NCBI GenBank assembly: GCA_026874595.1
Contig: CM049317.1
Coordinates: forward strand, 15,735,382 to 15,799,381
Length of the DNA stretch: 64,000 nucleotides
Source: Sipunculus nudus
Taxonomy: Eukaryota > Annelida > Sipuncula > Golfingiida > Sipunculidae
Direction: 5' to 3'
Position 1 is the first letter of the stretch. The number at the start of each line of letters is the position of its first letter. Made by a program: the position numbers and the translations under genes. Shown one piece after another: positions 21,210 through 58,920 of the stretch. The notes under the pieces were generated by a model that was not told where the DNA came from, did no database searches, and saw nothing but the letters and a program-made list of their open reading frames with translations.

Positions 21210-24200
21210 CAATTATATATTATTAGGGCCGATATTTCCTTATATATATATATGTATACACGACCATCTGTATAGCATATAAATGATGGATAGATCTTAT
21301 TACTGTTTTAGAGGCCACGTTTTATATGCATGTGGCTAGTAATTATACAGAAATCAAAACCCGTATTAGTTACCTTATACATCTATACCTGTACTTGAGA
21401 CGAGAACATATATATATATATAAATGTGAACCACGTCCCGGTAATGTGACTAAAGCGTGCTGTTGCCTCGATTCCTTACGAAAATTCGTCAAGGTATTGA
21501 ACATATACCATTTTTTTTTGTTTATTTAATACACCATTTCAGGTAATGAAGCGAATGTTTGTATATTTTTTCTTGGCAAGCTTGAAAAGTTACAAGTATT
21601 TTGTATTGTCCGGTAAATAGAAAGACAAAGAAAAATTTCAGATTTTTTTTGTTTCACATGCAAGGCAAATAAGAGCGGCGAATCCGTAGAACAATTCATT
21701 TTTGTGTGTAACCAAACCACTCAGATCACGTGACTTACAAAAAAAAATAATACCAGCATACAGTGGAACCTGTGTTATGTGACCACCCTTTGGACAGACG
21801 CAAGGAAGACACCTGAGTGTGTTTGTGTTTAGCGTAGTGCTTCTTAGGGTTTTTTTTCTCTTCAGTTACCTAACCAAATAGAACTATCTTACCACATTTG
21901 CGACACATGCTGTTAAGGTGGCAGGACTAGTCACCCCACCTGACCTGACATTGTTTCAGTTTTTCCTTTGCATTGTACAATCTAATGCTTTAGTACCCCC
22001 TAAAGTATACATTTTCTAAAAGCTAAGAAAATTCTCTATAATTTGGTGATAATAATCTTTGTTTCTGAGGAACAGGTTTGAATTTATAAGAATTTTAATT
22101 TAATTTTAATATTTAACAAAAAACCGTTTATTCCAGCACAACTAAAGCAGATACACAAAATCTTCTTAAATAAATCGAGAATTTAGATAATAATCCCCAG
22201 GCGTTTTTTTTTGTTTACTGAGATAAGTTTAAAATAACGATTTTACACAGTATTTAATTTTGAAATCTTTACAAATCATTTAATTTTTTACTTTTACCTT
22301 AATAAATCCTTCAAATTTAGTATAGGCGTAAAATAAAAAAAGCTTTTTAGAAGACATATTAACAATTACATATATCAAAGATGGTATGTTTCGGACAAGT
22401 ACTTACTGAGAAATAACGCTCTAAAGATAAGGTGTTCAGGTGAAATGATGTTTCGAGAAAATGGCCAAAAACTATATTCGTATACAGATTATTCGTCCTA
22501 CACACGTAACTAATCACAACTACATGTTGACAGTCACATGAATTTGGTCAAGACGGTGGTTCTTATCAAACCATACTATAATAACATGGATTAATTGACT
22601 ATTTTGCTTTAAAAACGTATTAAAACGATAAAAGTTTGACCTGTCACACCGGCGAACTGTCTAACACCACGTGCATGGACTTCAGTAGGCGGAGCTTACA
22701 GTTTTGGCCGAGTGCCGGGCCTAATAGGTAACCGCGTGTTTACTCAGGAACAAGGGGAACGGGATCTATGGCCATTCAAGGAGAACGAAGATTGATTTAC
22801 TTTTCACGGTTTACATACATTATAGGTATTTGGGAGTTGACTATAGAGACGAGTTTATAACGATCATACAAATCTCGCATACACATACAAGTCATATGTG
22901 AAATCTGGACTTCTTGTTTATTGGAGGGTTGAATAGGAAGACGATGGTTTGTAACATTCATACATCATGCACACACGTTCAAGTCACAGAAGGAGCCCGA
23001 TTATCTTATAAGGTTTATTTACATGGAATCTATAAATGGCAACAAATTAAACAATCAACGTAGTGATAACTGACCTCGTGATAACTGTTTGTATAGTAAT
23101 TAGTGTTCTTTAGTAATAAGTCACTAGATACTTCTGGTTGCATGCACATATCCGAAGGTGCATCTACATGAAATTGTATGTTGTTACAACAGCAGCACAG
23201 AGTTTCCGGGTCAATTATATCTTGAAAAAGATCTAATTTGTTAAAATCCGAAGTGGATTTTTGTACTAAGTTAACGTCGATGTTACTGGTTTATCTCTTT
23301 CAATTAAAGCCAGTTATTCACCTGTCTTTGTGTAAACTTTATTTGATTTTTGGCTTACCCGGCTACCTATGGATAAATCATAGGTAATTTCTAATAAGGA
23401 AGGTACTTTTAACGCTTCTGTGACTGATTTATGAGCCTGTTTATTTGCAAGCCGTTAGAAAACACGGTATATCCGCCAAAGTGGAGAAAAAGAAACATTT
23501 GAATCACGTAGTGCGCATGCTCATGAAAAACTTTAAGGTGCGGAAACCTTTTCGTATTCCGAAGTAAACATATATGAAAGGCTGATTGGCACGCATGTGA
23601 TGCTGGCCACATGTCTACATATATCTTTGAAATTACAAGAGGAACGCCATGCGGTCTCAGACTGATAATTAGTATTATACAATAGAAATACTGTAACCTA
23701 AATATGACGCCTGGCACGTGAGGTGAATTGCTAATTTGGTGGTACACGCACTTATAATTAGTAGCGGAAGTGTCGCTGAACACGACAGATGCGTGACTCT
23801 TACAGAGACTCTTAATGAGCAACGCGTGATAACATTGTAAGAAACTCGTCATTTTCAATAATACTCAAATACTGTGCACAGCACACAATTGAATTTACTT
23901 ATTTTTTAAAATGATATTCTAATTATATGTTTTATTTCACCAAAACTTTTCAAGAAACTTTTAAAGGATTACATATTTAATATAGTTCCAGTCATTTAAT
24001 AATTAGAAGCGTGCATTCTCAAGATTGCACACCTCCGCCATGTGGGGATCCCCATTGTGTAATGCTCCAAAAACCATTTTACATTCATTTATTCGGCCTA
24101 TATTACCAGGTTTATTAGTGCATAAGTGACCGTACATTTGTAAATGTTCCTTGATGATGTTCTTGAATCCGTATCTTGGGGTGGATCAACTTCAAAATCT

Positions 24201-24558
24201 AATTGGTTCTTCATTGGCTCCTTCCAAAATGCCCTGAAAAATTTCTCGATATTCCGTTGATATTATTATTATTCCATGATATTACGTTGAACACACACAA
24301 AGGGACGGGAATGAATATTAAAATATTATAATATATTAGTTTTACGTCACATGCCTTTGCGGTCTTTTTCCTCGCATTACATAACAGCCTATATACTAGT
24401 CATAAAATCAGCGCCTGCGTTTTTGCTTCCCGTTCACGTGATGCCTTTACCTTACCGTATGTAGTATGTTCAAAATGTCATTAAAATATAAACTCTTCTT
24501 ATATTCATTACTCATTTCTCTGGCAATGAGGCAATTTTGTCGTTTATTATTATGATAA

Positions 24559-33185: not shown

Positions 33186-33795
33186 TAAATTTTATGACAT
33201 AATATAAACTATTCACTATTCTACAGTTCCCAGTTGGCAGTCTCTATGAACTTCTTTGATTTATTCAAAATCATTACCGCGGCGCAAAACGCAAGCGATG
33301 TTATAGAATGAACCACCATAATAAACACATTTTTTTATACCCACAGTATCATATACCAGATCAAACACAGTCATGATTTTCTGCTATAATGTACGGGCAT
33401 CGAATATGTTTTGACGTAGGAATGATTTATGACGCGATATATGAAAAAAACCCTTCAATGTTTGTTACATGTGCCATAACCTTTTATGTGTGTGCCGAGC
33501 TCGCTGTTGAAATAAGGTAATATTTGTAAGTTACGAGTGAGTCACCATGACAACCAGCCTCGAAACTATTTAAGTAATTTGTAGGCAAACGGTTCAAATG
33601 ATTGAAACACTAAAAACATCGCGCCGGATTATATATCAAAATGGAGTCTTTGTTACCCATGGATGATGAATACGATGTCAAATAAAGCCTTGATTTTTTA
33701 CACACATAAGAAATGATTGATGCAGAGCAAATTGTATATTGTACAGGTTTATTAAAAAATTTATAGTGTCGGAAGCGTCGAGAGATAACTTTATT

Positions 33796-34140
33796 GCCTC
33801 CACCAGGAGAGTTTGGTTTCATCCCCTTTCGTATGTGTGTTTCAGTGTGGGTTTGTGTGTTTGTTCATAACATAACTCACGCAATTATTAACGGAATCTC
33901 AGGGAATTTTCAGGGCATTTCGGAAATGGGCATATGAAAAATCGATTAGATTTTGGCATGGATCCGGCACATGATCGGGTTCAGGTACGTCGTCAAAGAA
34001 TATTCACAAATGTAGAGTCACTTATGCACGAATGAACTTGGGTTTATGGGCCAAATGAATGAAGGCAAAATCGGTTTTGGGTTCATTTTACAATAGGGGC
34101 TCCCTTATAGCAGCGGCTTGCATTTCATAGAATGCATAAT
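33796..34140 (+). repeat. Dispersed element, copy B
   Basis: It begins CACCAGGAGAGTTTGG, continues through GTGTGTTTGTTCATAACATA and GGGCATTTCGGAAATGGG, and includes a single monomer-like segment (TCACTTATGCACGAATGAAC then GGGCCAAATGAATGAAGG). It ends near GCTTGCATTTCATAGAATGC. It is a single-copy counterpart of the segment amplified at 40441-46500. Confidence 0.75.
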
Positions 34141-34920
34141 TCTATAGTTTTATATAACAGTGTAGTGTAGAGCTGTGTCCGCACTATAAACCATACTCAC
34201 CGAAAAAAAAACTATTGGATATAAAGTCAAACTGCCTCACAATAATTAAAGCTGTAGCGATACATTAATTCACGATACAATACGTATCACGATACTTCAT
34301 TTTCGATACAATATACGTTACGATACTAATAATTTGTAATGGAGTTTAGAGTTCAAGCCTTGTTCTTTGTTACAATTTACTGTGAAGTTTCCTCCTCTCT
34401 TCAGAAATAATGACACATAAACCTTAATTCTTTAGCTTTATTGATCTTGCGGTGGTTAGCCAATCAGACGCTGGTTAACTTATTTCTGGCCAATGACTGT
34501 TCGTCTTACACGCACAGGGCCGCTGACTGTTATTAAAACCGGATATTGCTGGTTAATTGTCAGACATACTGTTGTATAGTTATATATATCGTCAGCGTAT
34601 TGATATAGGGTCATCTCGCGATAAAGATCCGTTATTTTACACTGTATCGCAAGGTATTGGTACTCAGGTGCAACGTTACAGCTCCACCCACAATCCACGT
34701 TCTGATCACGTGGCCTCAGTATTTATTCGGTGTTTGATAAGTATCGGGCGAAACGCTTTCAGGAGGTGGTTTCTGAAATCTGGGTGACTGAAGATGTTTT
34801 TGCTTTATTGAGCTGGGACCCCAGCCCTGTTCGCTTCTTAAGCGTAATTTTGATGGAGCCGATAGACGAGATGCCACACAAGCCAAACAGGAAACCACGA
34901 GAGGCCGCCACCGTGTTTCC
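34141..34920. other. Intergenic, nothing recognised
   Basis: A CACGATACAATACG-type A/T repeat lies near 34270-34330. Short plus frames up to 34930 have no recognisable motif. Confidence 0.35.
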
Positions 34921-39873: not shown

Positions 39874-40174
39874 ATGCTGACGTTGACAGTTCTGACCGTG
39901 GTGTGGCTGCTGCCAGCATCCTGCGGATATTATCATAACAAAGATGTGGACCGCATCCACCGGCTGCTGGAGAGGCTAAAACAATACCACCTCATCAAGA
40001 ATCCGGGAGGAGAGAACGTGGAGGACAGAGTGACGCTAGAAGAGCGAGGGAAACCATGGGATAAAGTAGAAACAATAGAATACAGGTCCAAAGAGGATGG
40101 AGATGATGTTACTGATAATGAAGACCTGCCTCCCGAACAGTCTCTAGATGATGAAACTTTATTTGAAGATTTAG
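39874..40174 (+). CDS. ACE: ACE coding exon 1 (signal peptide and acidic N-terminus)
   Basis: Residues 1-100 plus one base. The start is fixed by an in-frame TGA at 39868-39870 and an A at position -3. [18 protein letters not shown] is a typical signal peptide. Residues 72-100 are strongly acidic ([15 protein letters not shown] and onward) and have no counterpart that I recognise in mammalian ACE. Donor TTAG|GTATGT at 40175. Confidence 0.88.
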
Positions 40175-43100
40175 GTATGTAAGGAGACGCACGTTAGTTT
40201 GAGTCCCTTACCCTTTATTTCTGTCTTTGTTTAGTATTTCATTATATGCATTTGTCTGTTTGGGCCTGTATTTTAGTCTCTCTTATTCAATGTGTGCGTC
40301 TCTCTGTTTTTTCCTCCGTCCGGGGGGGGGGGGGGGGGGGGGGGTATGCGTTCATTCCCGTTCGTGTGTTTGTATGTGTGTTTATATGTGTTTGTTCGCA
40401 ACAAATAATCGAGCAATCATGAACGAAATCACATGGAATTGGCCGAATAAGTGAACGCAAGCACAGGTTAGACGAACTTCTGGACGAATGAATCTGGAAG
40501 GATTGGCCAAATAAGAGAATGCTAGCACGGGTTGGGAAAACTTCTGCATGAATGAAGCTGGGAGTATTTTGCCGATAAAGTGAATGCAACCACGGGTTGG
40601 GGAAACTTCTGCACAAATGAACCTTGGAGTATTATGCCGATTAAGTGAATGCAACCACGGGTGTGGAAACTTCTGCACGAATGAACCTATGAGTATTGGC
40701 CGAATAAGAGAACGCAAGCACGGTTTGGGAAAACTTCTGCACGAATGAAGCTGGGAGTATTGTCCGAATAAGAGAACGCAAGCACAGGTTGGGAAAACTT
40801 CTGCACGAATGAAGCTGGGAGTATTTTGCCGATAAAGTGAATACAACCACGGGTTGGGGGGACTTCTGCACAAATGAACCTGGGAGTATTTTGCCGATTA
40901 AGTGAATGCAACCACGGGTTGGGGAAACTTCTGCACGATTGAAGCTGGGAGTATTGGCCGATTAAGAGAACGCAAGCACGGGTTGGGGAAACTTCTGCAC
41001 GAATGAAGCTGGGAGTATTGGCCGAATAAGAGAACGCTAGCACGGGTTGGGAAAACTTCTGCATGAATGAAGGTGGGAGTTATTGGCCGAATAAGAGAAC
41101 GCAAGCACGGGTTGGGGGGACATCTGCACAAATAAACCTGGGAATATTTTGCCGATTAAGTGAATGCAACCACGGGTTGGGGAAACTTCTGCACGAATGA
41201 AGCTTGGAGTATTGGCCGAATAAGAGAATGCTAGCACGGGTTGGGAAAACTTCTGCACGAATGAAGCTGGGAGTATTTTACGATAAAATGAATGCAACCA
41301 CGGGTTGGGGAAACTTCTGCACAAATGAACCTTGGAGTATTATGCCGATTAAGTGAATGCAACCACGGGTGGAGAAACTTTTGCACGAATGAACCTATGA
41401 GTATTGGCCGAATAAGAGAACGCAAGCACGGGTTGGGAAAACTTCTGCACGAATGAAGCTGGGAGTATTGTCCGAAAAAGAGAACGCAAGCACAGGTTAG
41501 GAATACTTCTGCAAGAATTAAGCTGGGAGTATTTTGCCGATAAAGTGAATGCAACTACGGGTTGGGGGGACTTCTGCACAAATGAACCTGGGAGTATTTT
41601 GCCGATTAAGTGAATGCAACCACGGGTTGGGGAAACTTCTGCACGAATGAAGCTGGGAGTATTGGCCGAATAAGAGAACGCTAGCACGGGTTGGGAAAAC
41701 TTCTGCATGAATGAAGCTGGGAGTTATTGGCCGAATAAGAGAACGCTAGCACGGGTTGGGGGAACTTCTGTTACGATTGAAGCTGGGAGTATTGGCCGAT
41801 TAAGAGAACGCAAGCACGGGTTGGGGAAACTTCTGCACGAATGAAGCTGGGAGTATTGGCCGAATAAGAGAACGCTAGCACGGGTTGGGAAAACTTCTGC
41901 ATGAATGAAGGTGGGAGTTATTGGCCGAATAAGAGAACGCAAGCACGGGTTGGGGGGACATCTGCACAAATAAACCTGGGAGTATTTTGCCGATTAAGTG
42001 AATGCAACCACGGGTTGGGGAAACTTCTGCACGAATGAAGCTTGGAGTATTGGCCGAATAAGAGAATGCTAGCACGGGTTGGGAAAACTTCTGCACGAAT
42101 GAAGCTGGGAGTATTTTACGATAAAATGAATGCAACCACGGGTTGGGGAAACTACTGCACAAATGAACCTTGGAGTATTATGCCGATTAAGTGAATGCAA
42201 CCACGGGTGGAGAAACTTCTGCACGAATGAACCTATGAGTATTGGCCGAATAAGAGAACGCAAGCACGGTTTGGGAAAACTTCTGCACGAATGAAGCTGG
42301 GAGTATTGTCCGAAAAAGAGAACGCAAGCACAGGTTAGGAATACTTCTGCAAGAATTAAGCTGGGAGTATTTTGCCGATAAAGTGAATGCAACTACGGGT
42401 TGGGGGGACTTCTGCACAAATGAACCTGGGAGTATTTTGCCGATTAAGTGAATGCAACCACGGGTTGGGGAAACTTCTGCACGAATGAAGCTGGGAGTAT
42501 TGGCCGAATAAGAGAACGCTAGCACGGGTTGGGAAAACTTCTGCATGAATGAAGCTGGGAGTTATTGGCCGAATAAGAGAACGCTAGCACGGGTTGGGGG
42601 AACTGCGGCGTGAATGAAGCTGGAAGTATTGGCCGAATAAGAGAACGCTAGCACGGGTTTGGAAAACTTCTGCACGAATGAAGCTGGGAGTATTGGCCGA
42701 ATAAGAGAACGCTAGCACGGGTTGGGAAAACTTCTGCACGAATGAAGCTGGGAGTATTGGCCGAATAAGAGAACGCTAGCACGGGTTGGGAAAACTTCTG
42801 CACGAATGAACCAGGCAGTATTTGGCCGATTAAGTGAATGCAAGCACGGGTTGGGGAAACTTCTGCACGAATGAAGCTGGGAGTTATTGGCCGAATAAGA
42901 GAACGCTAGCACGGGTTGGGGGGACTTCTGCACAAATGAACCTGGGAGTATTTTGCCGATTAAGTGAATGCAACCACGGGTTGGGGAAACTTCTGCACGA
43001 TTGAAGCTGGGAGTATTGGCCGATAAAGAGAACGCAAGCACGGGTTTGGAAAACTTCTGCACGAATGAAGCTGGGAGTATTGGCCGAATAAGAGAACGCT

Positions 43101-46100
43101 AGCACGGGTTGGGAAAACTTCTGCACGAATGAAGCTGGGAGTATTGGCTGAATAAGAGAACGCTAGCACGGGTTGGGAAAACTTCTGCACGAATGAACCT
43201 ATGAGTATTGGCCGAATAAGAGAACGCAAGCACGGTTTGGGAAAACTTCTGCACGAATGAAGCTGGGAGTATTGTCCGAATAAGAGAACGCAAGCACAGG
43301 TTGGGAAAACTTCTGCACGAATGAAGCTGGGAGTATTTTGCCGATAAAGTGAATACAACCACGGGTTGGGGGGACTTCTGCACAAATGAACCTGGGAGTA
43401 TTTTGCCGATTAAGTGAATGCAACCACGGGTTGGGGAAACTTCTGCACGATTGAAGCTGGGAGTATTGGCCGATTAAGAGAACGCAAGCACGGGTTGGGG
43501 AAACTTCTGCACGAATGAAGCTGGGAGTATTGGCCGAATAAGAGAACGCTAGCACGGGTTGGGAAAACTTCTGCATGAATGAAGGTGGGAGTTATTGGCC
43601 GAATAAGAGAACGCAAGCACGGGTTGGGGGGACATCTGCACAAATAAACCTGGGAATATTTTGCCGATTAAGTGAATGCAACCACGGGTTGGGGAAACTT
43701 CTGCACGAATGAAGCTTGGAGTATTGGCCGAATAAGAGAATGCTAGCACGGGTTGGGAAAACTTCTGCACGAATGAAGCTGGGAGTATTTTACGATAAAA
43801 TGAATGCAACCACGGGTTGGGGAAACTTCTGCACAAATGAACCTTGGAGTATTATGCCGATTAAGTGAATGCAACCACGGGTGGAGAAACTTCTGCACGA
43901 ATGAACCTATGAGTATTGGCCGAATAAGAGAACGCAAGCACGGGTTGGGAAAACTTCTGCACGAATGAAGCTGGGAGTATTGTCCGAAAAAGAAAACGCA
44001 AGCACAGGTTAGGAATACTTCTGCAAGAATTAAGCTGGGAGTATTTTGCCGATAAAGTGAATGCAACTACGGGTTGGGGGGACTTCTGCACAAATGAACC
44101 TGGGAGTATTTTGCCGATTAAGTGAATGCAACCACGGGTTGGGGAAACTTCTGCACGAATGAAGCTGGGAGTATTGGCCGAATAAGAGAACGCTGGCACG
44201 GGTTGGGAAAACTTCTGCATGAATGAAGCTGGGAGTTATTGGCCGAATAAGAGAACGCTAGCACGGGTTGGGGGAACTTCTGCACGATTGAAGCTGGGAG
44301 TATTGGCCGATTAAGAGAACGCAAGCACGGGTTGGGGAAACTTCTGCACGAATGAAGCTGGGAGTATTGGCCGAATAAGAGAACGCTAGCACGGGTTGGG
44401 AAAACTTCTGCATGAATGAAGGTGGGAGTTATTGGCCGAATAAGAGAACGCAAGCACGGGTTGGGGGGACATCTGCACAAATAAACCTGGGAGTATTTTG
44501 CCGATTAAGTGAATGCAACCACGGGTTGGGGAAACTTCTGCACGAATGAAGCTTGGAGTATTGGCCGAATAAGAGAATGCTAGCACGGGTTGGGAAAACT
44601 TCTGCACGAATGAAGCTGGGAGTATTTTACGATAAAATGAATGCAACCACGGGTTGGGGAAACTTCTGCACAAATGAACCTTGGAGTATTATGCCGATTA
44701 AGTGAATGCAACCACGGGTGGAGAAACTTCTGCACGAATGAACCTATGAGTATTGGCCGAATAAGAGAACGCAAGCACGGGTTGGGAAAACTTCTGCACG
44801 AATGAAGCTGGGAGTATTGTCCGAAAAAGAGAACGCAAGCACAGGTTAGGAATACTTCTGCAAGAATTAAGCTGGGAGTATTTTGCCGATAAAGTGAATG
44901 CAACTACGGGTTGGGGGGACTTCTGCACAAATGAACCTGGGAGTATTTTGCCGATTAAGTGAATGCAACCACGGGTTGGGGAAACTTCTGCACGAATGAA
45001 GCTGGGAGTATTGGCCGAATAAGAGAACGCTAGCACGGGTTGGGAAAACTTCTGCATGAATGAAGCTGGGAGTTATTGGCCGAATAAGAGAACGCTAGCA
45101 CGGGTTGGGGGAACTGCGGCGTGAATGAAGCTGGAAGTATTGGCCGAATAAGAGAACGCTAGCACGGGTTTGGAAAACTTCTGCACGAATGAAGCTGGGA
45201 GTATTGGCCGAATAAGAGAACGCTAGCACGGGTTGGGAAAACTTCTGCACGAATGAAGCTGGGAGTATTGGCCGAATAAGAGAACGCTAGCACGGGTTGG
45301 GAAAACTTCTGCACGAATGAACCAGGCAGTATTTGGCCGATTAAGTGAATGGAAGCACGGGTTGGGGAAACTTCTGCACGAATGAAGCTGGGAGTATTGG
45401 CCGAATAAGAGAACGCTAGCACGGGTTGGGAAAACTTCTGCATGAATGAAGCTGGGAGTTATTGGCCGAATAAGAGAACGCTAGCACGGGTTGGGGGAAC
45501 TGCGGCATGAATGAAGCTGGGAGTATTGGCCGAATAAGAGAACGCTAGCACGGGTTGGGAAAACTTCTGCACGAATGAAGCTGGGAGTATTGGCCGAATA
45601 AGAGAACGCAAGCACGGGTTGGGGGAACTGCGCCATGAATAAACCTTGGAATATTTTGCTGATTAAGTGAATGTAACCAGGGGTCGGGGGAACTTCTGCA
45701 CAAATGAAGCTGGGAGTATAAGCCGATTAAGAGAACGCAAGCACGGGTTGGGGAAACTTCTGCACGAATGAAGCTGGGAGTATTTTGCCGATAAAGTGAA
45801 TGCAACCACGGGTTGGGGGGACTTCTGCACAAATGAACCTGGGAGTATTTTGCCGATTAAGTGAATGCAACCACGGGTTGGGGAAACTTCTGCACGAATG
45901 AAGCTGGGAGTATTGGCCGATTAAGAGAACGCAAGCACGGGTTGGGGAAACTTCTGCACGAATGAAGCTGGGAGTATTGGCCGAATAAGAGAACGCTAGC
46001 ACGGGTTGGGAAAACTTCTGCATGAATGAAGCTGGGAGTATTGGCCGAATAAGAGAACGCAAGCACGGGTTGGGGGAACTGCGGCATGAATGAAGCTGGG

Positions 46101-49100
46101 AGTATTGGCCGAATAAGAGAAAGCTAGCACGGGTTGGGAAAACTTCTGCACGAATGAAGCTGGGAGTATTGGCCGAATAAGAGAACGCTAGCACGGGTTG
46201 GGAAAACTTCTGCACGAATGAAGCTGGGAGTATTGGCCGAATAAGAGAACGCTAGCACGGGTTGGGAAAACTTCTGCACGAATGAACCAGGCAGTATTTG
46301 GCCGATTAAGTGAATGCAAGCACGGGTTGGGGGAACTTCTGCACGAATGAAGCTGGGAGTATTCGCCGAATAAGTAAATGCAAGCACGGGATTGGGGAAC
46401 TCCATCACGAATGAATCTTGGAGTATTGGCCGAATATGTGAATGGAAGCACGGGTTTTGGGATTTTCTGCACGAATGAACCTGGGAGTAATGGCCGAAAT
46501 AAAGTAGGCATTCCATAATAAACACCGCCCACATCGCGGAGGCCTGCATTTTCGAGAGTGCATATTTCTAGTTTGTTTATATCTACTACTAGCTGATAGA
46601 CCCGGTATACCGGGCTTATTACTGGGGTTGGGGAGATTTATTAACTGAGATGTGAAATGTTGGCTCATTTTTTTTATTCTAAAAGTTAACAGAAAATATA
46701 GGTTTTCAGTGGGAAACTGTCTCGATAAGATATGTATAAACATTTTGGCACGACTGCAGAATAACTCACGCACCTCTCTGAGGTACAACACTTCTGTGAA
46801 CAGAAAACGTTTCTTTGTACAGCTGCTTGTATCTTAATTTTGCCACTTACTTTTAAATTACATGAATCCTTAACATCATACCGTCCGTCCGTATAAACTC
46901 ATAATCTGGTGGAGATAGTGCGTGAGTGATCCTGCAGTCGCTCCAATATTTTTAACATTTATTTTGTGGGGCTGTCCTCGTGGCAAGAAATTTATATCCC
47001 GGTATGTTTACCTTGATGACCTGACCAGTGACGGTGTTATAAATATATATAATAATAACAGGGAGATAAAGTAAGCATATGCACATATGTATGTTGCACT
47101 TGGAGGTTAATGTAATTTGCACAAAAATCTGTCATATATTTCAGATAAATTTTTAAACCCAGAAAAATATAAGATTGAAAGCTGGATGACAAAAATCAAT
47201 GAGGAGCTCCGAGAATGGAACCATCGATTGGCGGTGTCTGGCTGGACATACGAGACCAATGTCACGAAGGCCAACGTCGAAAAGGTATGGAGAAACGTAT
47301 CGAAAAGCATAGGCGCGTATGTATCAAAAGAATGGTGTATGTGTGCACTCGAAGAAAAAAAAAAAGGTTCTTGAGGGTTCATTTAGGAACCCATATTATA
47401 TAGTTCTATCCAGAACCATGGTTCCTTCTGGAACCCTTTCTGCAGTGGAAATGTTCCATCGGGCACTTGAAGGTTCATGTGTGTCTGTGCGTTTTTGGCA
47501 GGGGAAGATTAAGCTTAATATAAATGATTAATAATCCATATTGAAAAAAAAAACATATACACACGCAAACACATATACACGTTTAATTTTACATATATGG
47601 AACACGATAACCATTAACTAATTCCCAAAATGGACCTTTCATTGATTATTTTTGTCCATAACATATGACTCTCCATGTATGATCTGTGATGCACCAATAA
47701 TCATTTTGTACAGAGCTTGTGGTTTTATCGGGTCGGAGTGGGGTATGTTGGGGATGGGAGGTGTGGTTTATTTTATGGTTGCAGATATTTCAAACAGAAA
47801 CATCTATACAATTATACGAAATTAATTTTATGACTCTTTGTTTATCAATGCAAATGTAATTGTTATAAAACATTTAATGGTCAGGAATAGAACTTAAGAT
47901 ATTTGTGTTTATATTAAGCAAAATCTGCAACTGAAGCTACAACCCTGAAGCGAGAGTAGTATTGCGCATGCGTATTTAGTATAGTCGACATGTCGGAGTT
48001 ATGATTCGTTTATCTCAAAATGTCAAGATGGCGTATTTGTTTATATTCATTCAGAAAAAGGAAGTTGCGCTGCAAATGGCCATTTGGGCTCGGGGCGCGG
48101 TGAAAAAGGCGAGAAACTTTCTCAGTAGTGGGGTCGACCTTGACCCCGAAATAAATCGGATGTTAAAACTCACGGCTCAAAGTGTTACCTCAGATGATCA
48201 TGAAAAACAAAGGTAAGACAATTTTTCATATAAGTTTGAATTGAATATATACTTTAGGGAACTGAAATAGTGTAAAAAATACACGGGGATTCGCTGGTGT
48301 TTCCCTGATAAAAAGAAAAATGTTACAAACAAAATGGTTCGGTGCAAGTGAAAGTTGCTTTACTGGCGAGGTGGGACAACATCTGACTCATTTAGGTGCA
48401 GCTCTGATTTGGTCTCAGAGGTCAGCTCCATTTTTCATCCTTTTAAATTTAGATATGTTTCAAAACATTGTTTAGCCTGTAAAATAATTAAGTGCGTTTA
48501 TAAGCGTTTTAAAGAAGATGCACTTTGGATGCAGATGCGTACCAAAATTATGTATTCTTTGGGTATGTATGGTTGAATAAACTGGACACTGTACATACAG
48601 AGCGCATACCCCCAAAATCGGGAGTTCATTATCATGATCGCTTTCCAAAATTGGAAGATCCGAACCCGAAGTCACAATTTCCTCAATAATCGATAGAAGT
48701 GTTTAAATACAATGGTCCTGTACCAGTCTTCTGTACCAGTGGCAGTTATTATTAGGGGGACAGGTGTACAGAAAATCATGATCCCAATCCCAAATTCTGA
48801 TCACCACTCCTTATCACAAAGTCCACATCTTGACAACTTATCTAAGGTTCCATCAGACCGAGACAACCGAACAGACAAACGGGCAGAACAGACAAACAGA
48901 CGGACGAATAATATACACATATATGAAAATATAGCCTCTCATTTTTTTTCGCTGGCGGAGTTTACTACAATTTAAACTGTCGCTTTGTGTTTATTTTTCA
49001 ATCTTAGGAAAATTGAAGATCTTCTTAACAAGCTGAGCATGCTATACGGGCAGACAACAGTGGAAAAAGACGGAAAAAAGTATCACGTGGAACCAGAGCT

Positions 49101-51876
49101 AGAAAACGTCCTGGCAAAATCACGTGACTACGATGAGATCCTGTGGGCGTGGTTGTCGTGGAGGAACGCCACGGGTGCAAAAATGCTACCGTTATACGAG
49201 AAACTAGTGAAACTGCAGACTGAATCCGCCAGAGAAAATGGTATGAGTATCTTTTTAGAGACAAATATCGTAAGAAAGCTGAATGATAATTTTATAAAAA
49301 AAAAATAATCTCTACTTATTTCCCTGTTTGTTTGTGCAAATGTCTGCCATGTTAGATTTGTCGAGTCGAGCTGTTAGTTTTCAAAGTACGACTTGAAACC
49401 TGATTTGTCTTGAGTTCGGGGCTGAAAAAAGTTCCCTCATGCAGTACTGGAAACGTGCTTTTCTCAACATTTTCCGAAGAATTATTTTTCATGTAATGTA
49501 AGAGTTACCTCTAACTATGAATCACAAAGCTGATTATATTGGTTAAATACTGATACCATGTTACAAATATACTAGTTTCCATTACATGTTGCCTAAAATT
49601 GGAAGCTCCCTTTCAGTGCATACGGTCACGGCCAAAGAATTCTTAACTATGTCCGCTTATTAGTGGTTCTGTATAGTACTGTACTTTGAAATTATACACA
49701 TACATTTATATATATTAATTTATTTATGGGTGTATGAATGTATATAGAGATAATGCGTGCTGTTATTTTGCAAGTTATTTTGCATATTTTATACACAGGT
49801 AAAATAGTATGATAACAAAATCGTTTTTATGTAAAAATTGAGCCTTTAAGAAAATAATATTTTTGTGGTGTTAAATTGGTGCATAGATGCTCTCAGTAGA
49901 TTTCCACTTTTTATTGGAGAATGAAAATGCGACGGGTGCCAAAACCTGAAATCCACAGACATAAATTATGCATCCAATTTTGCACTTTTTAAAATCCGGG
50001 CTAATGGGAGAATTCAGTGTTGACAAATATTACATACTTGCAGGTTACCGTGACTACGGTAACTACTGGCGGGTTAACGGGTTCGAGCAGGATGACATTG
50101 GCGACGAGGCTGAGAAGCTGATGAGAGAGATGATGCCGCTTTACCAGCACGTCCATGCTTACGTCAGACGCAGACTTATGCAGAAATACCCACAGGCAAA
50201 AATCAGTCCAAAAGGTCCAATACCGGCGCATTTACTCGGTAAGTTACTTCCACGTCTCCCTCATACTCTCAAGTCTGTGAATTTGCTTTAATAGACCTTG
50301 ATTCAGCGAGCCGCTCTGGTGTCTATTTCATGAATACTGAACAAGTCACAACTGCAAGTCAAATCAAATGAACGAAATGCAAAGAATACATTGTTCAAAC
50401 GCAGTCTGAACAAGAACACATTGACCAGGAACGGGACAGGCTCATATGGCTTTTTTATTATTTAAATTCTCGATGTCTTCCTAGGAACACGAAACGAACG
50501 ATTAATACATCGCACCATGCAGACGTCCGCGAAGAGCAATGGAGTCATTTGATTGTTCGATTACCTTGTTCATCATTCATGAAATAGTCACCAGAGTGGC
50601 TCGATGAATCAAGGTCTGTGAAAGCGTAGCTACAGACTTGAAAATATGCTTCCAGGTGACTGGGTGATTCGAGTGAAACGTGTAAATCATTATATACGCC
50701 AAAAAAAAAAAAACCCAAAAAAAACAAATGGCGAAAGATGGACCGAATATCAGTGAACTATGAGCGACCTCAAGTTTAATATTGTCTTCTTTAAGATTCT
50801 AAGTGTATCTAAGAATATCTTGTACATTGTAGTTTAATTAATAGCGGTATACCAATATATTGACATGCGACCTGTGACAACCGGGTTTTAGTGTGTACCT
50901 AAAATGGAAGCCGCCATGAGCGGTTTCGAGAAAGTGGGAGAAATAAACCTGTCAGGGTTCGATAAGGGTATAGGGATGCAACATGAATGTACTCCGAGAA
51001 AAGCGTCGAGGCAAGAATCTAGCTGCGGAGAGAGTTTGGTGGCAAGGCGACGTGTATCGGGAAAGACTAGGGCGGAATAACGCTGTTTTGAACCACGCCC
51101 AAATCCTCAAATCATCGTAGGATATTTGGGCATGACGGTATATACACTTATTTCTCAGGTAACATGTGGGCTCAACAGTGGACGAATATCCTTGACCTTG
51201 TGAGACCTTTCCCATCAGCACCCACGGCGGAAGTGACGTCAGAAATGGAAGCACAAGGTTATGATGCAGAGCGTATGTTCAGAACGGCTGAATCCTTCTA
51301 CACCTCAATCGGGTTGGAACCGATGACCGAAAATTTCTGGAATTATTCGTTGATCAGGTTGCCGACAGATGGCAGGACTGTACAATGTCACGGGTCAGCT
51401 GAAGAAATGCACGATGAAAAGCATGAAGATTTTAGGTAAGTGAAAAATGAAATTAAAAAGCTCTGATTAACTCCCTGCTTTTCTAAGTATAGGGAACATG
51501 GAAAAGCAATAATACTCCGCATTTTACATTGTTGCATAACAAAAGGGCAATAGACAGAGCATGGTGCTCCACATTTCACATTGTTTTGAAAATAAAGGAA
51601 CATAACAGGGCATTGATAGATTTAGTGCACAGTTTTAGTGCTACAATGTTTTAAGCATGCCTATCCAACAGAATATAAGAACGTGTCCCGATTTGGCTAA
51701 AGCCATACTGTTTTATCAATTTAGTATTTTCTTTCTAAGAAAATAATGTATTACAAAGTGTTTGATTATAGACCAGGGCAATCACTGTATTTAGTTGTTA
51801 ATAATTTATTTTCAACTTTTACTGTATATTAAACAAAAAAAACAAAAAAAAAAAAAAAAAACGAAATCATGAGGCC

Positions 51877-51933
<57 letters not shown>

Positions 51934-54900
51934 TGAATAATAGCTGTGGCGGGAGTTTTCGGAGTATGTAACAGCTCATTTTAAATTAATATTAAATTAA
52001 TACTTCTTCATATACAGCGTATGTTTTGTCCAGCTACAGTGTAACATGAACGTCTTTTGTTTACGGATAACATAAATGTCTGTTATTACTCATACGATCA
52101 GTTTTCAGCTTTCACAGTTAACGTATAAGAGATGCCAGAGGGACTGTAGTATATAGGACCGTTCACTTGTGTAGATAGGGCATATTATTCACGACGGTTT
52201 ATTTTTCGCGATAATTTCCGATTCGCAAAAATTGCGAATTTGAAAACCTCGCGAACAAAAAAAAACCTACAATAAATACTTTTGTGAGCAATCTTTCACT
52301 TGTAAAAAGTGGCCTTACCATAGCCGGTATGTCGTCATCATCCCACCTGGCTGAAATTGACATTTTCTGCTTACAGAATCAAAATGTGTACTCGCGTGAC
52401 CCAGGATGACCTGCAAACCGTTCATCACGAGATGGGTCACGTGGAGTATTTCATGCAGTACCGCCACCTGCCGGAGGTGTTTCACTCCGGGGCCAACACA
52501 GCCTTCCATGAGGCTGTAGGTGACACCATAGCTCTGTCCGTCATGACCCCGGGTCACCTCAAAACCATCGGTCTACTCAAAGAGGAATCTCTCACAGAAC
52601 ATCAAGCATATCGTAAGTCATCTCGGTTGAAAAAAATATCGTATAATAATAAAACAAGGCCACAAGATAAAATAAATTGTAGTATGGACTTTTGGAAAAT
52701 AAAAACAAATGTGCGAGTGCAAAGTTCTAAAATAACATTTACCGGTGCAGACAAAATATTGATTTTGCTCACTTGTAATAATAAAATTTAGTATGTGTTG
52801 CACAATACCTCCATAATTACTCTAAAGGGACAAAACTAAGACCCTGATGGTCTTTCACCAACAAAGAATCTTATTGGTGTGGCCTAATTGGTAAAATGCC
52901 ACATGTCAGTATGTCAATATAACACGAATATCAATATCCCTAATAAGAATTATGTACACTTCTCATAATCAGCACAAACGACATTTTAGATTAGACATAT
53001 AGTTAATTCATATTAATTGCTTGGAAAACATATTTAGAGGCTATTAAGGTAATTAAGGCAAATCAAACAGCAGACACCGCCACCTTGGGCGACACCCAAA
53101 AAATATTTGTTGCACGACCATGGAGAAAAAAATATGAGTGGGCGAATTTGTATTTATTCATTTAATTCAACGGAAACATTTTAAATTATTTATTTATTAA
53201 TTTCTTTAACTTATCGTCAAAGACACATTTTATCAGGTTTTCATTTTTTTATTAGTCCGAGATGCTTTCTGTTCGTGCCCAAACTCATTTATTATCACAC
53301 ACACAGACTATATGAAGGGATTAAAGGCCCTATGGTTTAATGCTGGTTTAGATTACGCAATCCTGTTATATGTGATCACAACGGAAATCAGTTGTTCATT
53401 TAAAATTTTAAGACATATAATATTTCTTTATTACAACAGAACGGGATATGAACTTTCTAATGCAAATGGCTTTAGAAAAGGTTGTATTCCTTCCCTATGC
53501 ACTTGCACTGGATAAATGGAGATGGGACGTGTTCAGTGGCGCCATCACGCGGCAAGAGTATAATCGGCGATGGTGGCACTACAGGTAAAACACAAGTATT
53601 TTTTACTCTTAGTTATTTATTAAGTAAATGAAAGGATTAATGTAACAGAGGTTATATTTCCGATTTCGCTTCAATAAAAATAGAATCTAGTAAAACAACG
53701 ATGTCGGCCGAGCGCTTTTGTGGGTGGCTGGGCCTCATGCGCCCGGCGCTGTTGAAGTTGTTAATGGTTCCTTATTCAGTGTATAGGTTCCAGGTAAAAT
53801 ACAAATGTGTGTGACGTGTAAAACCTGTCCGGACATGGATAACGGTATGCATTTCAGAACGCCCCCTGTACGGTTCGCCTTCCGGCGCCGTATACGGATC
53901 CATACCGGTATTCTCCCACTGATGTAATATCATATATATTTAATACAGGAAGTTCTACAATGTACTTAAACTGCGCTCATTATACTTATTTTAACTGTTC
54001 ATAGGCCCCATTAAACCCGGTGAAACTGTGACTTTAGCCGTACTGCCACAGTACGTGGAACATTTCAGTGGAAATACGCTAAACGTATCCGTACCCATAT
54101 CTGTGTCCGTATCAGTGTCTGGATAAATGAAAACAGAGCTTAAGACTTCTGATTCCAAGTCATTTCATTGTTTAAGTTGTTTGCACACTCCAGAAATAAT
54201 GTATAATAATGAAATAGCCTCTAAAATGGATTTGAACATGTGGCTAACCAATCACATGCCTATAGATCACACGCTTTCTGACCAATAATGTTTTACACGC
54301 GCTGGCCCTCTTACTATTAAATACCAGAGAAGTGAGGTAAAGTCTGAACATTCTATTGAATGGTTACCGATATATATTGTAAGCGTGTCGATAAAAGGGC
54401 ATCTGATGATAGCCATACCATACTTGACTTTGTATCGTGATGTATCTGTCCATACTTACAACCCAAGTTTTCACGCACATACTAGTATGCTGTCAGCTAC
54501 ATATATCCACACATGCATTTAGACAAACACACCGGTATATTCTGAAAGAACAATACGAACATGTATCCACGCAATGTATGCGTGACGCATGTATGTGTGC
54601 ATTGGTGTTAGACAGCGTTGACACATGGTCTTATTTTCAGACTGAAGTATCAAGGTTTGAAGCCACCTGTGCCTCGTTCTGGTGAAGACTTTGACCCCGG
54701 TGCTAAGTACCACGTGGCCTGTAACGTGCCGTACATAAGGTAAATAATGACGTCATATATTCTAAGTTAATAAGTGGAATACCTTTGAACAAGATTATCG
54801 TTATTTACGGTTAACGTAACTACCACTTTTGCTTCTCAGAGCCATCCAATATTCAAACGTTGACAAATTAAGAAGTTTAAGATATCTTTATTTTACACTG

Positions 54901-57124
54901 AACGGTAGCTTTCATCATATTTCAGCTCAACGCAGTGGAATGATATGTGTTCTCCTTGGCAATTCCCTCAAATGTATAAAAATATGAAATAAACAAAGAG
55001 ATGACGTCACATATACTTGCTGATTTCTTGTCGTAATATGGTTAAACGTCTTTTGATTACCTAAACGAGTCACTTGTTGTGTTGTTCAGGTAGGACACCC
55101 AGGTGACTGGCGACATCTTGTGGTCTTATCTTACAAAATTCACTCACACAAATTGACGACATGATTGTTTTACGTCATTTTGTACATGAAAATGGATTAA
55201 TAACTCGTCATTAAGAAATCTATCCGCGAATACACGACTTAGTAGGCATTTATACTGGGCTTGTAAACTTTATGCTGGTACGTTGATCTTCATGCTCTCT
55301 CCAAGGTACCAGCAATACCATAAGCTGTCATCAACCAGTTACTGATAACAATACAATGAAAAGGCAGTTAACTCCCCACATTTGTGTGTGAACTTAAATA
55401 AGGCCTATTTAATAATTATATCTACTTCACAATATACTGCAGACAGGGCCTTGGGTCTCTTTGCAGGTATTTCTTCAGTTTTATCGGACAGTTTCAGTTC
55501 CAGCATGCCCTGTGTCAGGAGAAAGGTCACGTGGGCCCCGACCATCACTGTGATATATACAGGTCAAAGGCCGCTGGAAAAAAGCTGAAGTAAGTATTGT
55601 TATCAATGGAGATATAAATTCAGAGCATCCTTCAGAGCGCAAATTTTCTCCAATCAAAAGTGATTAACAAACCTTTTTCACTACACTCACGCCCCCTGTT
55701 AGACGGCAAGGGAAACATGCTCTCGGGTGAAAATTAAATGCTTGCCAGGGATTTACATACATATTATCACCTTCAGTTATGGGTATACTATTTGGAAATG
55801 ACCTGTGGACAATGGAAAAGCGCATGCTTTCACTGGACTCGGCAGCTTTTAGTATAAAGCACTAACAAACGACAGTGGGGCCTAAATGAGGTTCTTTTAA
55901 CATGATTATTGTTAATCACAGGATTTATCGCTATGCTTTTCAGCGCCTAATGGTATTCAAACGTCGAACGATTTAGATGTGGTATTATATGTATCTTTTC
56001 GAATGAACCTAAGCTTTAATCATATTTCAGCTCAACGCAGTGAAATTATGTATTTTGGTTGCCAATCCACTCAAATGTATAAGAATATTCAAAGGATTTT
56101 TCCAGTTTTAATGCCTTACTCAAACGTTATGCGTTTCACTAAATGAATACAAGATGGCGCTGAAATGCAATAACGGTTTGAGCGTAATTAATAATGAGAG
56201 ATATTTTGAGATATCTACTTGATCCCATAGTTGTTAGAACTGCTTTTGTCACAGAAGTCGGTTAAAAGGTGTCCAAAAGCAAAATATCAAATCTCATAAA
56301 AAAATGAAATAAATATAAATAATGAACAAATAAAAAGATGACTTTATTTTGATTCAGAATCTCGTAGTGGTTGCATACTTTTAACATTCGGTTAATGTCA
56401 GGGTTTATTTGTTTACTGCTAGTTTACAACAATCATATATTACGTTCACTGTTTTTTTCTTTATTCTTTAGTACTTGCAAAGGGTATTGTTTCCTACAAG
56501 ACAAGACTCCAAAAGTGTTCAGTTGGATTTTGCTTACGTTCAAGAAAAAAGGCCCCACCTGATTCAATATTTTGACAAGATTTTATATTTGATTATAAAT
56601 TTAAATGTACAAATTAAATTCATATTAGTATGTTCACTATAAAACATTTGTTTACAACTCGATACAGAGAAAATTAAATGTTTTGAATCACGAGTAGCTT
56701 AAGTTATAGTCTAAAGTTTATTATATAAAACAAGTAAAGATTGTTTAAATCTTCGAAAATCCAACCAGTTTTGGAAAATCCCTAAGTTTTCATATACCCG
56801 TTGTAGAGAAAACTTCAACCTTTCAGAATATGTTATATCTAGTGCACCTGGTTAAGGTAATATTAATTAAACACTGATCCTATATGTAAACAAACTCCAG
56901 GACAGTTCTCGGACAATAAAACGTTTAGTATTTTTGCGATATTTTCACAACATTTCTTATTTTGTAGATCGATGTTGAGCCTCGGACAAAGTAAACCATG
57001 GCCTGTTGCCATGGAGATTTTGACTGGCGAGCGAAAGTTCAACACACGCGCTATACGGAAGTACTTCCGGCCGCTGGAGGACTGGCTCATTGAGCAAAAT
57101 CAAAACGAGGCTGTGGGATGGTAA
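39874..57124 (+). CDS. ACE: Angiotensin-converting enzyme-like dipeptidyl carboxypeptidase (peptidase M2), complete gene, 11 coding exons
   Basis: Secreted zinc metallopeptidase that would remove C-terminal dipeptides from peptides. Coding exons: 39874-40174, 47145-47284, 48055-48212, 49008-49240, 50044-50238, 51159-51435, 52377-52612, 53440-53584, 54641-54739, 55467-55589, 56968-57124. All introns are GT-AG and every phase matches, giving 687 residues, the size of single-domain ACEs. Residues 1-18 form a signal peptide. Visible family features: GPIPAHLLG (335-343), zinc motif HEMGH (452-456), third ligand Glu480 (24 residues on, as in the family), substrate residues His420, Lys584, His586, Tyr593 and Tyr596, chloride ligands Arg252, Trp558/Trp559/Arg562 and Arg595, and cysteine pairs 419/439 and 611/623. 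There is no C-terminal membrane segment, so it is soluble. Oddities: the first family disulfide is absent and the loop after Cys419 is altered. All key catalytic residues are intact. Confidence 0.95.
40322..40440 (+). repeat. 5' flank of the dispersed element that hosts the array
   Basis: A poly-G tract (40322-40344) is followed by TATGCGTTCATTCCCG, GTGTGT words, TTTGTTCGCAACA and AATCATGAACGAAATC. This is the same order as in dispersed copies at 7186 and 62831. It then jumps directly into the first monomer, so the middle of the element is deleted. Confidence 0.65.
40441..46500 (+). repeat. 64-bp minisatellite array with higher-order structure, inside ACE intron 1
   Basis: About 95 tandem monomers by length, period 64 bp (CTGCAC at 45181 and again at 45245). 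Monomer core: CACGAATGAAGCTGGGAGTA, TTGGCCGAATAAGAGAACGC, TAGCACGGGTTGGGAAAACT. Variant monomers carry AAGTGAATGCAACC in place of AAGAGAACGCTAGC. A variant series recurs every 837-838 bp, and a larger 2511-2512-bp block is duplicated. Because 64 is not a multiple of three, each strand is read in all three frames in turn. The minus strand happens to be mostly open, which creates many overlapping repeat-peptide frames that I regard as spurious. Confidence 0.95.
46501..46580 (+). repeat. 3' flank of the dispersed element that hosts the array
   Basis: Contains GGCATTCC and GTGCATATTTCTAGTTTG, matching the 3' end of the dispersed copy at 62831-63122 (TGCATTCC...GCAGGTTTCTAGTTTT). The array therefore sits between the two ends of one element copy. 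Confidence 0.5.
46588..47045 (+). mobile_element. Dispersed repeat with CCCGGTATACCGGG palindrome, copy 2
   Basis: It begins ACTAGCTGATAGACCCGG, with the perfect palindrome CCCGGTATACCGGG at 46601-46614, and shares ordered blocks with 12232-12585. It abuts the end of the array inside ACE intron 1. Confidence 0.7.
47145..47284 (+). CDS. ACE: ACE coding exon 2
   Basis: Completes residue 101 and encodes 102-147. It carries the conserved WTYETNVT stretch with N-glycosylation sequon Asn139-Val-Thr. Acceptor ATATTTCAG, donor AAG|GTATGG. Confidence 0.9.
47365..47455. repeat. Small inverted-repeat element in intron 2
   Basis: Alternating GGTTC and GAACC words (GGTTCTTGAGGGTTC, AGGAACCCATATTAT, CAGAACCATGGTTCC, CTGGAACCC) make a self-complementary segment typical of short inverted-repeat elements. 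No target duplication could be fixed. Confidence 0.4.
48055..48212 (+). CDS. ACE: ACE coding exon 3
   Basis: Residues 148-199 plus two bases of 200. Helical N-terminal part of the catalytic domain ([13 protein letters not shown]). Acceptor TTCATTCAG, donor AAAG|GTAAGA. Confidence 0.9.
49008..49240 (+). CDS. ACE: ACE coding exon 4
   Basis: Residues 201-277. Contains the family stretch [10 protein letters not shown], with Trp248, Trp251 and Arg252 at the first chloride site. No cysteines, so the first disulfide of vertebrate ACE is missing. Donor AATG|GTATGA. Confidence 0.92.
50044..50238 (+). CDS. ACE: ACE coding exon 5
   Basis: Residues 279-342. Contains YRDYGNYWR, the HAYVRRRL segment and the start of the signature GPIPAHLLG. 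Donor CTCG|GTAAGT. Confidence 0.93.
50293..50617. mobile_element. Inverted-repeat element (MITE-like) in ACE intron 5
   Basis: Left repeat 50293-50345 and the reverse complement of right repeat 50565-50617 match at 48 of 53 positions (both start AGACCTTGATTCA and end GAACAAG). Total length 325 bp with no coding content. No clear target duplication is seen. Confidence 0.8.
51159..51435 (+). CDS. ACE: ACE coding exon 6
   Basis: Residues 344-434. Starts [10 protein letters not shown] and contains [21 protein letters not shown] and PTDGR. The active-site loop reads Cys419-His-Gly-Ser-Ala, then [11 protein letters not shown]. Vertebrate ACE has CHASAW-DF here, so a Trp is lost and the loop is about two residues longer. 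Confidence 0.93.
51881..51930. repeat. (AT)n microsatellite in ACE intron 6
   Basis: About 25 AT dinucleotides preceded by an A-rich tract. Confidence 0.95.
52377..52612 (+). CDS. ACE: ACE coding exon 7 (zinc site)
   Basis: Residues 436-513. Contains HHEMGH (His452, Glu453, His456), EYFMQY, then FHEAVGD with the third zinc ligand Glu480, then [10 protein letters not shown]. Acceptor TGCTTACAG, donor TATC|GTAAGT. Confidence 0.96.
53440..53584 (+). CDS. ACE: ACE coding exon 8
   Basis: Residues 515-561. Contains [27 protein letters not shown] and WWHYR, with Trp558, Trp559 and Arg562 at the first chloride site. Donor ACAG|GTAAAA. Confidence 0.93.
54641..54739 (+). CDS. ACE: ACE coding exon 9
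   Basis: Residues 563-594. Contains FDPGAKYHV and NVPYIR, with Lys584, His586, Tyr593 and Arg595 for the substrate carboxylate and second chloride site. An extra cysteine (Cys589) lies in this loop. Donor AAG|GTAAAT. Confidence 0.93.
55467..55589 (+). CDS. ACE: ACE coding exon 10
   Basis: Residues 596-635. Starts with Tyr596 and contains FQFQHALC, with Cys611 and Cys623 forming the last family disulfide. Acceptor CTTTGCAG, donor TGAA|GTAAGT. Confidence 0.93.
56968..57124 (+). CDS. ACE: ACE coding exon 11 (C-terminus)
   Basis: Residues 637-687 and stop TAA at 57122-57124. Contains [17 protein letters not shown] and FRPLEDWL, the family end of the catalytic domain, then stops after AVGW with no transmembrane or GPI signal. 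Confidence 0.93.
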
Positions 57125-58069: not shown

Positions 58070-58920
58070 GATGTCTGCAACCAAAATGTGTATGTAGGTT
58101 GTGCCACCTACCACAAAATCCAGAAAGCTGTCCAAGTTGTATACATATGCAACATTTTAGGCAGATAAGTCAAACCACTACTTGTATATGAGTGATTTTA
58201 TCAGACAGCAGACAAACAGAAGGATGCTGTGCAAAAATGGTGGCAGGTGGCGCCACCTATCTTGTGTATGATCAAGAGCTACGTGAGATCTAAACACATG
58301 CACAATTTTGGCCCAATCGGTCAAACGGTTTCCGAGATATGAGCTTGGATTTCTGCAGCGTAAACGTGAATAAAGGTGGCGGCACCTGTCATAAAATCAA
58401 GAAACCTGTCCAGAATGTATAAATCTGCAAAATTTCAGGTAAATAAGTCAAACCACTGCCGAGATATGAGTGATTTTATCCCAAGGCAGATGGTCGCAGT
58501 TGGCGCCACTAGTTTTGCGTATGATAAAGAGCTATGTGAGATCTGACAACATGCAAAATTTTGGCCAAATCGGTCAGACGGTTCGTGAGATATGAGCTGG
58601 GATGTCTGCAGCGTGAATGTGAATGTAGGTGGCGCCACCTGTCATAAAATCCAGAAAGCTATCCAGGATGTATACACATGCAAAATTTCATGTGGATAAG
58701 TCCAACCAATGCAGAGATATGAGTGATTTTATCCCAAGGCAGAAGAACAGATGGACTCTGTGCAAAAAATGGTTGCAGGTGGCGCCACCAAGTTTAGTGT
58801 ATGTTATAAAGCTATCCAAGGGCTACATTTGTGCAAAATTTTTAGCCTGATCGGTCAAACGGTTCCCGAGATATGTGCGTTTATGTGTGGAAACAGACGC
58901 ACAAAGGGACGCTGGGCAAA
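58070..58920 (+). repeat. Three tandem degenerate units of about 250-280 bp with GGTGGCGCCACC palindromes
   Basis: The block CATAAAATCCAGAAAGCT occurs near 58108, 58385 and 58642. The half-unit block GAGCTACGTGAGATCT and GATATGAG words alternate with it. A palindrome or its variants (perfect AGGTGGCGCCACCT at 58245-58258 and 58627-58640, 13 of 14 at 58777-58789) recurs roughly every 125-150 bp. No protein is recognised; a plus-strand frame that runs through the end of it (58875-59294) has no known motif. Confidence 0.7.

Follow-up and report, generated by a model that had tools for sequence, protein, structure and literature searches.

A 94-unit tandem array inside a Helentron-like element in the first intron of an ACE-like gene of Sipunculus nudus

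Satellite-like arrays inside non-autonomous Helentrons (HINEs), and satellites that have grown from such elements, are already known. The anatomy of HINEs is described in PMC4067079 and PMC7492417, and the route from their central repeats to satellites is reviewed in PMC12628747. Whether the central repeats are captured satellites or the element's own sequence is a question posed in PMC7492417. Here we describe a HINE-like element of the sipunculan Sipunculus nudus which holds a tandem array of 94 units in the first intron of a gene for an ACE-like M2 peptidase. The locus is part of a stretch of 64,000 nucleotides (assembly GCA_026874595.1, contig CM049317.1, forward strand, positions 15,735,382 to 15,799,381), hereafter called the window, and coordinates without a contig label count from its first letter. 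Searches of the species' own genome refer to 1.4265 Gb in 153 contigs, for which labels such as C7 and C16 are used.

Compared to this element, Cg_HINE of the oyster Crassostrea gigas shows a similar organization with a left flank that contains a subterminal repeat, an inverted repeat and a microsatellite, central tandem repeats, a right flank with a subterminal repeat and a palindrome, T-rich targets and copies in or near genes (PMC7492417), a likeness that rests on descriptions and not on sequence comparison. The units of Cg_HINE, however, measure 138-181 bp and mostly occur as 2-5 monomers, the longest array in the published set comprising 29.3 (PMC7492417), whereas the copy in the ACE-like gene has a 64-bp unit, 94 copies and a 13-mer/39-mer order, and ordinary copies of its family hold about one unit. 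In Drosophila, DINE-1 and DINE-TR1 are likewise non-autonomous Helentrons whose central repeats grow into satellite arrays, an expansion which occurred independently and repeatedly in virilis/americana, biarmipes and the montium group (PMC4067079, PMC9957191). In contrast to the ACE copy, their central repeats are ~150 bp long (PMC4067079, PMC9957191); the DINE-TR1 satellites comprise up to about 540 copies (82.6 kb), and no intron location is described in the passages concerned (PMC9957191). Pearl, DTC84 and MgE of other bivalves are HINE-like and carry short central-repeat arrays, Pearl having up to six repeats of ~160 bp and no array as long as the ACE one (both as cited in PMC7492417). With canonical Helitrons the family shares a 3' palindrome and a CTRR-type end, here CTAG (PMC4067079). 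In searches of the open-access literature, none of the listed titles and beginnings of abstracts described the 64-bp family or an ACE intron array.

The element and its array in intron 1

Intron 1 of the ACE-like gene extends from 40175 to 47144 on the plus strand (6,970 bp, GT..AG ends), in agreement with the roughly 6.97 kb given in a preliminary description of this DNA. The same description had placed a minisatellite of about 95 monomers at 40441-46500, and Tandem Repeats Finder, run on the window, indeed returns a single array at 40438-46498 with a period of 64, 94.2 copies, 85% matches and a score of 8084. By wraparound segmentation this plus-strand array consists of 94 monomers of 64-66 bp (60 of 64 bp, 33 of 65 bp and one of 66 bp), of which 47 are distinct in sequence. 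While the large array is thus real, it is not a free-standing minisatellite, as its flanks correspond to the ends of a dispersed Helentron-like element. Hereby, the left flank can be aligned with E15-109 and the right one with the 3' end up to the CTAG, where E is a 412-bp consensus built from 39 aligned dispersed copies and the E-numbers are its positions. Both flanks match in order and orientation with E-values of 1e-24 and 2e-36. It appears nearly certain to us that the array derives from this dispersed HINE-like element.

The element that holds the array spans 40313-46571 in sense orientation (plus strand, about 6,259 bp, with an approximate 5' limit). Its 5' part (40313-40437, plus strand), located by blastn, comprises a decayed subterminal repeat CCTCCGTCCG, a poly-G run, a TG-rich tract and the end of E15-109. 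The consensus element carries a short 5' inverted repeat at a place where a G run is found here (40322-40344). At the junction (40434-40444, plus strand) E109 passes straight into the first unit and the core E110-247 is missing. This junction is private to the ACE copy, as none of 39 other loci matches beyond query position 97 in a search that scored 40 of 832 candidates. The 3' end (46508-46571, plus strand) contains the subterminal repeat TCGCGGAGGC at 46534-46543, the palindrome at 46545-46562 and CTAG at 46568-46571; it is identical to consensus E349-412 in 54 of 64 bases. Since the two element ends, with 12.6% and 15.6% divergence from the consensus, are about as diverged as the family in general (on average 11.5% for 63 hits and 13.2% for 45), the insertion appears to be old.

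Inside the array, monomers at lag 39 show a mean identity of.939 and those at lag 13 of.891, compared to a permutation mean of.851; for either lag none of 2,000 permutations was as high. Two plus-strand blocks of 34 units represent the 39-unit periodicity, m04-m37 at 40695-42885 and m43-m76 at 43207-45395. Their alignment of 2,191 columns contains 7 substitutions and 2 gap columns, which makes them 99.6% identical over 2.2 kb; the mean pairwise difference between units of the array is 13.9%. Among the 16 outermost units, the poorest best-matches to any other unit are those of m00 (.844), m92 (.815) and m93 (.846). Unequal exchange creates a higher-order organization in an array, the edges of which retain old units, and the 13-mer and 39-mer higher-order repeats together with the diverged outermost units are marks of this process. 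Judging from the similarity of the blocks, the last large duplications appear to be recent. The proposal in the preliminary description that array length probably varies between individuals would fit such recent duplication. The preliminary description was thus correct in reporting a tandem array but missed its higher-order structure as well as the mobile-element setting. A protein-coding function of the array was considered and discarded: open frames on the minus strand reach up to 174 aa, but the units are 64/65 bp long and the frames break off and start anew along the array, and the long frames can be explained by the stop-poor repeat sequence. No public viral contig contained an exact match to a 48-base pattern of the array unit.

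The consensus reads, in order, TTTT-GCCTCCGCCA, TG-rich tract, unique core, about 1.9 copies of the 64-bp unit, TGGCGGAGGC, palindrome and CTAG. The subterminal inverted repeats, GCCTCCGCCA at E5-14 and TGGCGGAGGC at E375-384, are perfect over 10 bp in the consensus and decayed in the ACE copy, and the TG-rich tract of the 5' region corresponds to the microsatellite feature of HINEs. A short 5' inverted repeat can form a CCTCC/GGAGG hairpin, the fold of which is weak (z -1.32, 24 of 200 shuffles as good). The 3' palindrome is TGCATTC-CTGA-GAATGCA; here, a 50-nt 3' piece, which also includes a second small hairpin, has a folding z of -4.16, a value that none of 200 shuffles attained. In a set of 78 copies a T precedes 32 of 42 recognised 5' ends and follows the CTAG in 26 of 30 cases, at a background of.31. 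The search pattern recovers this CTRR-type 3' end in 30 of the 78 copies; the ACE copy has it as well. By these features the family has the anatomy of HINEs, i.e. of non-autonomous Helentrons. Two other classes were rejected. A canonical Helitron does not fit a 5' end which reads GCCTCC behind a T, not TC, and flanks that are T/T, not A/T; as to a miniature inverted-repeat transposable element with long terminal inverted repeats, weak pairs of 16 nt and 14 nt alone span the array.

At least 143 matches to Rep (PF14214) are present in the own genome (150 of 195 candidates scored), several of them in frames of more than 2,000 aa, so that rolling-circle elements do exist in Sipunculus nudus. Twelve Rep loci of 3.4-3.6 kb showed no match to parts of the element, these loci being too short to reach the ends. 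These Rep domains are Helitron-like, and those in the long frames (>2,000 codons) may belong to rolling-circle transposons that are still active.

The dispersed family and its other arrays

Besides the ACE array, the own-genome search yielded at least 39 loci on 15 contigs with stretches that are 79-89% identical (40 of 331 candidates scored). The window itself holds four copies in addition to the one in the ACE-like gene, all of them unexpanded: two with about 0.9 unit (33794-34144, plus strand; 24004-24261, minus strand), a 3'-shortened one (62831-63121, plus strand) and one that lacks a recognisable 3' end and enters a G-rich tract (7187-7428, plus strand). To describe the unit content of ordinary copies, two samples were used. 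The first sample, chosen by similarity to the ACE 5' end, took 651 bases each from the first 16 of 39 non-ACE loci; the unit span is.69-.89 in nine of these copies and.31 or less in seven, and none has two units. In 59 copies picked by the unit (39 of 39 from the first genome search plus 20 of 27 further non-ACE loci) unit alignment gives 2.0 units or fewer in 57. The unit is therefore ordinary sequence of the element which is doubled in some copies. Counts based on gaps had suggested further arrays at two loci (L052, 15 units; L054, 8.7 units) and 1.4 units at a third (L082); unit alignment reduces these values to 2.0 or fewer and to.89, respectively.

In a midpoint-rooted tree of the core, which includes 60 of 78 copies (at least 110 bp; 18 dropped), all ten copies that had been selected by their 5' end fall together with three from the window and five selected by the unit. 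The form with two units may thus represent a subfamily.

Among the 38 loci listed by the search with the unit (40 of 738 candidates scored), three carry arrays, namely ACE, C7 at 6.04 Mb and C16 at 24.10 Mb, while the remaining 35 have at most ~2.2 units. The preliminary description had called the length of the array unusual, which is true of the sampled family, where 3 of 38 loci exceed this value, but an element-associated CgiSat01 array of 89 monomers has been published for oyster (PMC8268682). The C7 copy has a 5' part beginning at E6, followed by about 90 units of 63 bp (91.2 or 89.6 by two counts). Its array terminates in locus L048 against unrelated sequence, and about 3 kb onward on the same strand a C7-like unit (92%) is followed by the element 3' end E263-412. 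We read this arrangement as one complete element that a nested insert of about 3 kb has probably interrupted. The ends of the insert (about 6038570-6041612; L048, L177) are by eye mutually inverted repeats, as in a nested DNA transposon. Autocorrelation of the C7 array is led by lag 63; high values near lag 5,012 come from short overlaps. The C16 copy shows both element ends and 8.3-9.4 units of 67/68 bp.

Within the arrays mean unit identity is.861 (ACE),.842 (C7) and.853 (C16), compared to.69-.72 between arrays. The units of each array are.74-.77 identical to 48 dispersed units and thus nearer to these than to the other arrays, and for 93 of 94 ACE, 91 of 92 C7 and 8 of 8 C16 units the nearest neighbour lies in the own array. 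The unit thus appears to have grown separately in the three copies. Queries with the C7 unit and the C16 unit revealed no further long array among the candidates scored (40 of 906 and 40 of 587, respectively); the latter query found one locus of about 2.4 units (C10:18972559-18972712). Since the ACE array is absent from the scored loci of the C7-unit query, such searches can overlook divergent arrays, and the count of three is a minimum.

Probable mode of array growth and its possible consequence for the gene

We consider the following explanation, which comprises element insertion, in-place growth by unequal exchange and a neutral array, to be highly likely as a whole. A HINE-like element entered intron 1 long ago in sense orientation, as its two ends show. 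Its internal unit of ~64 bp multiplied to 94 in this copy, and the unique core was lost. The parallel arrays, the private junction and the divergence pattern suggest that this growth took place after insertion and in place. It would have started, perhaps, with slippage on a two-unit form and then have been driven by what is likely unequal exchange between sister chromatids or homologues, the pattern of which is seen in the array. For in-place growth by unequal exchange, taken by itself, we see a good probability.

Regarding the gene, the preliminary description had proposed that the array could affect splicing. This proposal finds no support, as the sense strand of the array (6,061 bp) contains no GTRAG and no pyrimidine-rich YAG motif, compared to 69 and 96, respectively, in the rest of the window (57,700 bp); hereby it should be noted that one sequence repeated 94 times does not equal 94 independent draws. 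Since by this simple scan the array is free of splice-like motifs, normal splicing is the default expectation. Most likely the array is neutral ballast in the primary transcript which would be removed with the intron, and it probably has no notable effect on the ACE-like gene.

Several points weigh against this explanation. The mean difference between units (13.9%) about equals the divergence of the element ends, so that growth may have begun as early as the insertion itself, either before or after it. A tree of the units places 13 dispersed units within the ACE clade and does not unite the C7 units in a clade of their own, although such trees are weak because the unit sequences are short. Moreover, with 40 candidates scored in each, the searches do not provide the frequency of arrays. 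Finally, the GC skew of the array (+.299) is higher than that of any of 91 overlapping 6-kb windows taken from other parts of the window (-.050 to +.131), which makes an effect on transcription conceivable; at the 1-kb scale one microsatellite window exceeds the array (.419).

The similar divergence of units and element ends would also be consistent with an element that arrived with a long array, formed by rolling-circle multiplication of its units or by satellite capture, and was then inserted into the intron. Both rolling-circle multiplication of internal Helitron sequence and repeat capture have been proposed (PMC12628747, PMC7492417). Nevertheless, the ACE junction occurs in 0 of 39 other scored copies, no other scored copy has an array of ACE-type units (40 candidates per search), neither the length nor the sequence of the unit is common to the three arrays, and much of the present length is recent given a difference of only 0.4% between the 2.2-kb blocks. 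We therefore regard a prior long array as rather improbable. The same blocks are hard to resolve with short reads, which might point to an array length produced by the assembly; yet the 94 units comprise 47 different sequences, substitutions and indels distinguish the repeated blocks, a comparable array exists at C7, and the window lies within a 78.6-Mb contig, though contigs may hold gaps elsewhere. An artefact is thus very improbable. That an unrelated minisatellite arose by chance in the intron, its likeness to a dispersed repeat being incidental, is refuted by the alignment of both flanks to element ends and by the fact that the unit belongs to the element in ordinary copies.

A further alternative concerns function. 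A strongly G-skewed, G-rich and purine-rich tract of 6 kb could change transcription of the ACE-like gene, e.g. via R-loops or a slowed polymerase, with copy number, moving in steps of 13 and 39 units, tuning the output. The skew, beyond that of the 91 other windows, and the first-intron position 264 bp behind exon 1 are in line with this idea. The unit sequence, however, is that of the element, so that the skew needs no selection, and similar growth is seen at other family copies; a functional array is accordingly a distinctly unlikely alternative. If it were true, the element's unit would be a built-in expansion seed and any copy could become a transcription tuner.

Returning to in-place growth of an element's own unit, the locus is of particular value in that it combines a unit series within one genome with higher-order structure inside a gene. 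The series leads from sampled copies with at most about one unit through a subfamily holding about 1.9 to three copies at 8-9, ~90 and 94. It favours an intrinsic origin of HINE central repeats, and each step becomes datable. At the same time the locus illustrates array growth within an intron while the gene around it is apparently intact, and the array itself records recent change. As the blocks are 99.6% alike, the locus is suited for measuring directly how array length varies in a natural population.

The ACE-like gene and further observations

The coding part of the ACE-like gene (39874-57124, plus strand) consists of 11 exons at 39874-40174, 47145-47284, 48055-48212, 49008-49240, 50044-50238, 51159-51435, 52377-52612, 53440-53584, 54641-54739, 55467-55589 and 56968-57124. 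Motifs and a search of the own genome for the peptidase family served to locate them, the latter recovering eight exons; with a bacterial ACE as exon guide, 84 stretches fitted the patterns and none encoded a relative. The exons give 687 codons with a sole, terminal stop, and all introns have GT-AG ends and keep the reading frame. Peptidase_M2 (PF01401) covers positions 4-581 of 581 in the product (E 6e-222, Pfam), a PDB search ranks ACE chains first, the HEMGH zinc motif is present in the sequence of exon 7 as HHEMGH, and exon 1 encodes, by eye, a hydrophobic N-terminus. As read from the exons and the full-length M2 domain, the gene is apparently intact, which bears out the complete peptidase gene of the preliminary description; its further statement that splicing must cross the array also holds, as the array is located within intron 1 between exon 1 and exon 2. 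Without the element intron 1 would measure about 711 bp, close to the neighbouring introns, the nine others of the gene being 727-1378 bp long.

Outside the element, intron 1 contains a palindrome around CCCGGTATACCGGG (46596-46619) and a 37-nt inverted repeat pair with 84% complementarity and a spacing of 144 nt (46737-46954), which are perhaps remnants of other elements. Many further M2 (ACE) exons are found outside the window on C12 near 49.8-49.9, 52.3 and 59.0 Mb, on C17 near 17.2 Mb, on C6 near 59.5 Mb and on C9 near 12.15 Mb; the M2 peptidase family is expanded in the Sipunculus nudus genome.

The own genome also contains nine bacterial-type COX1 frames of 577-578 aa and near-equal score on eight contigs (C60, C61, C62, C66, C72, C74, C75 and C89; L096 included). 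One of them is 52-58% identical to the best 80 named relatives listed. With such frames and relatives this distant, bacterial genomes of an unplaced lineage were seemingly assembled with the animal. A separate COX1 of 489 aa on C123 may be mitochondrial. Downstream of the ACE-like gene, Tandem Repeats Finder reports a direct tandem duplication at 58237-58743 (253 bp x 2.0 copies, 85% matches).

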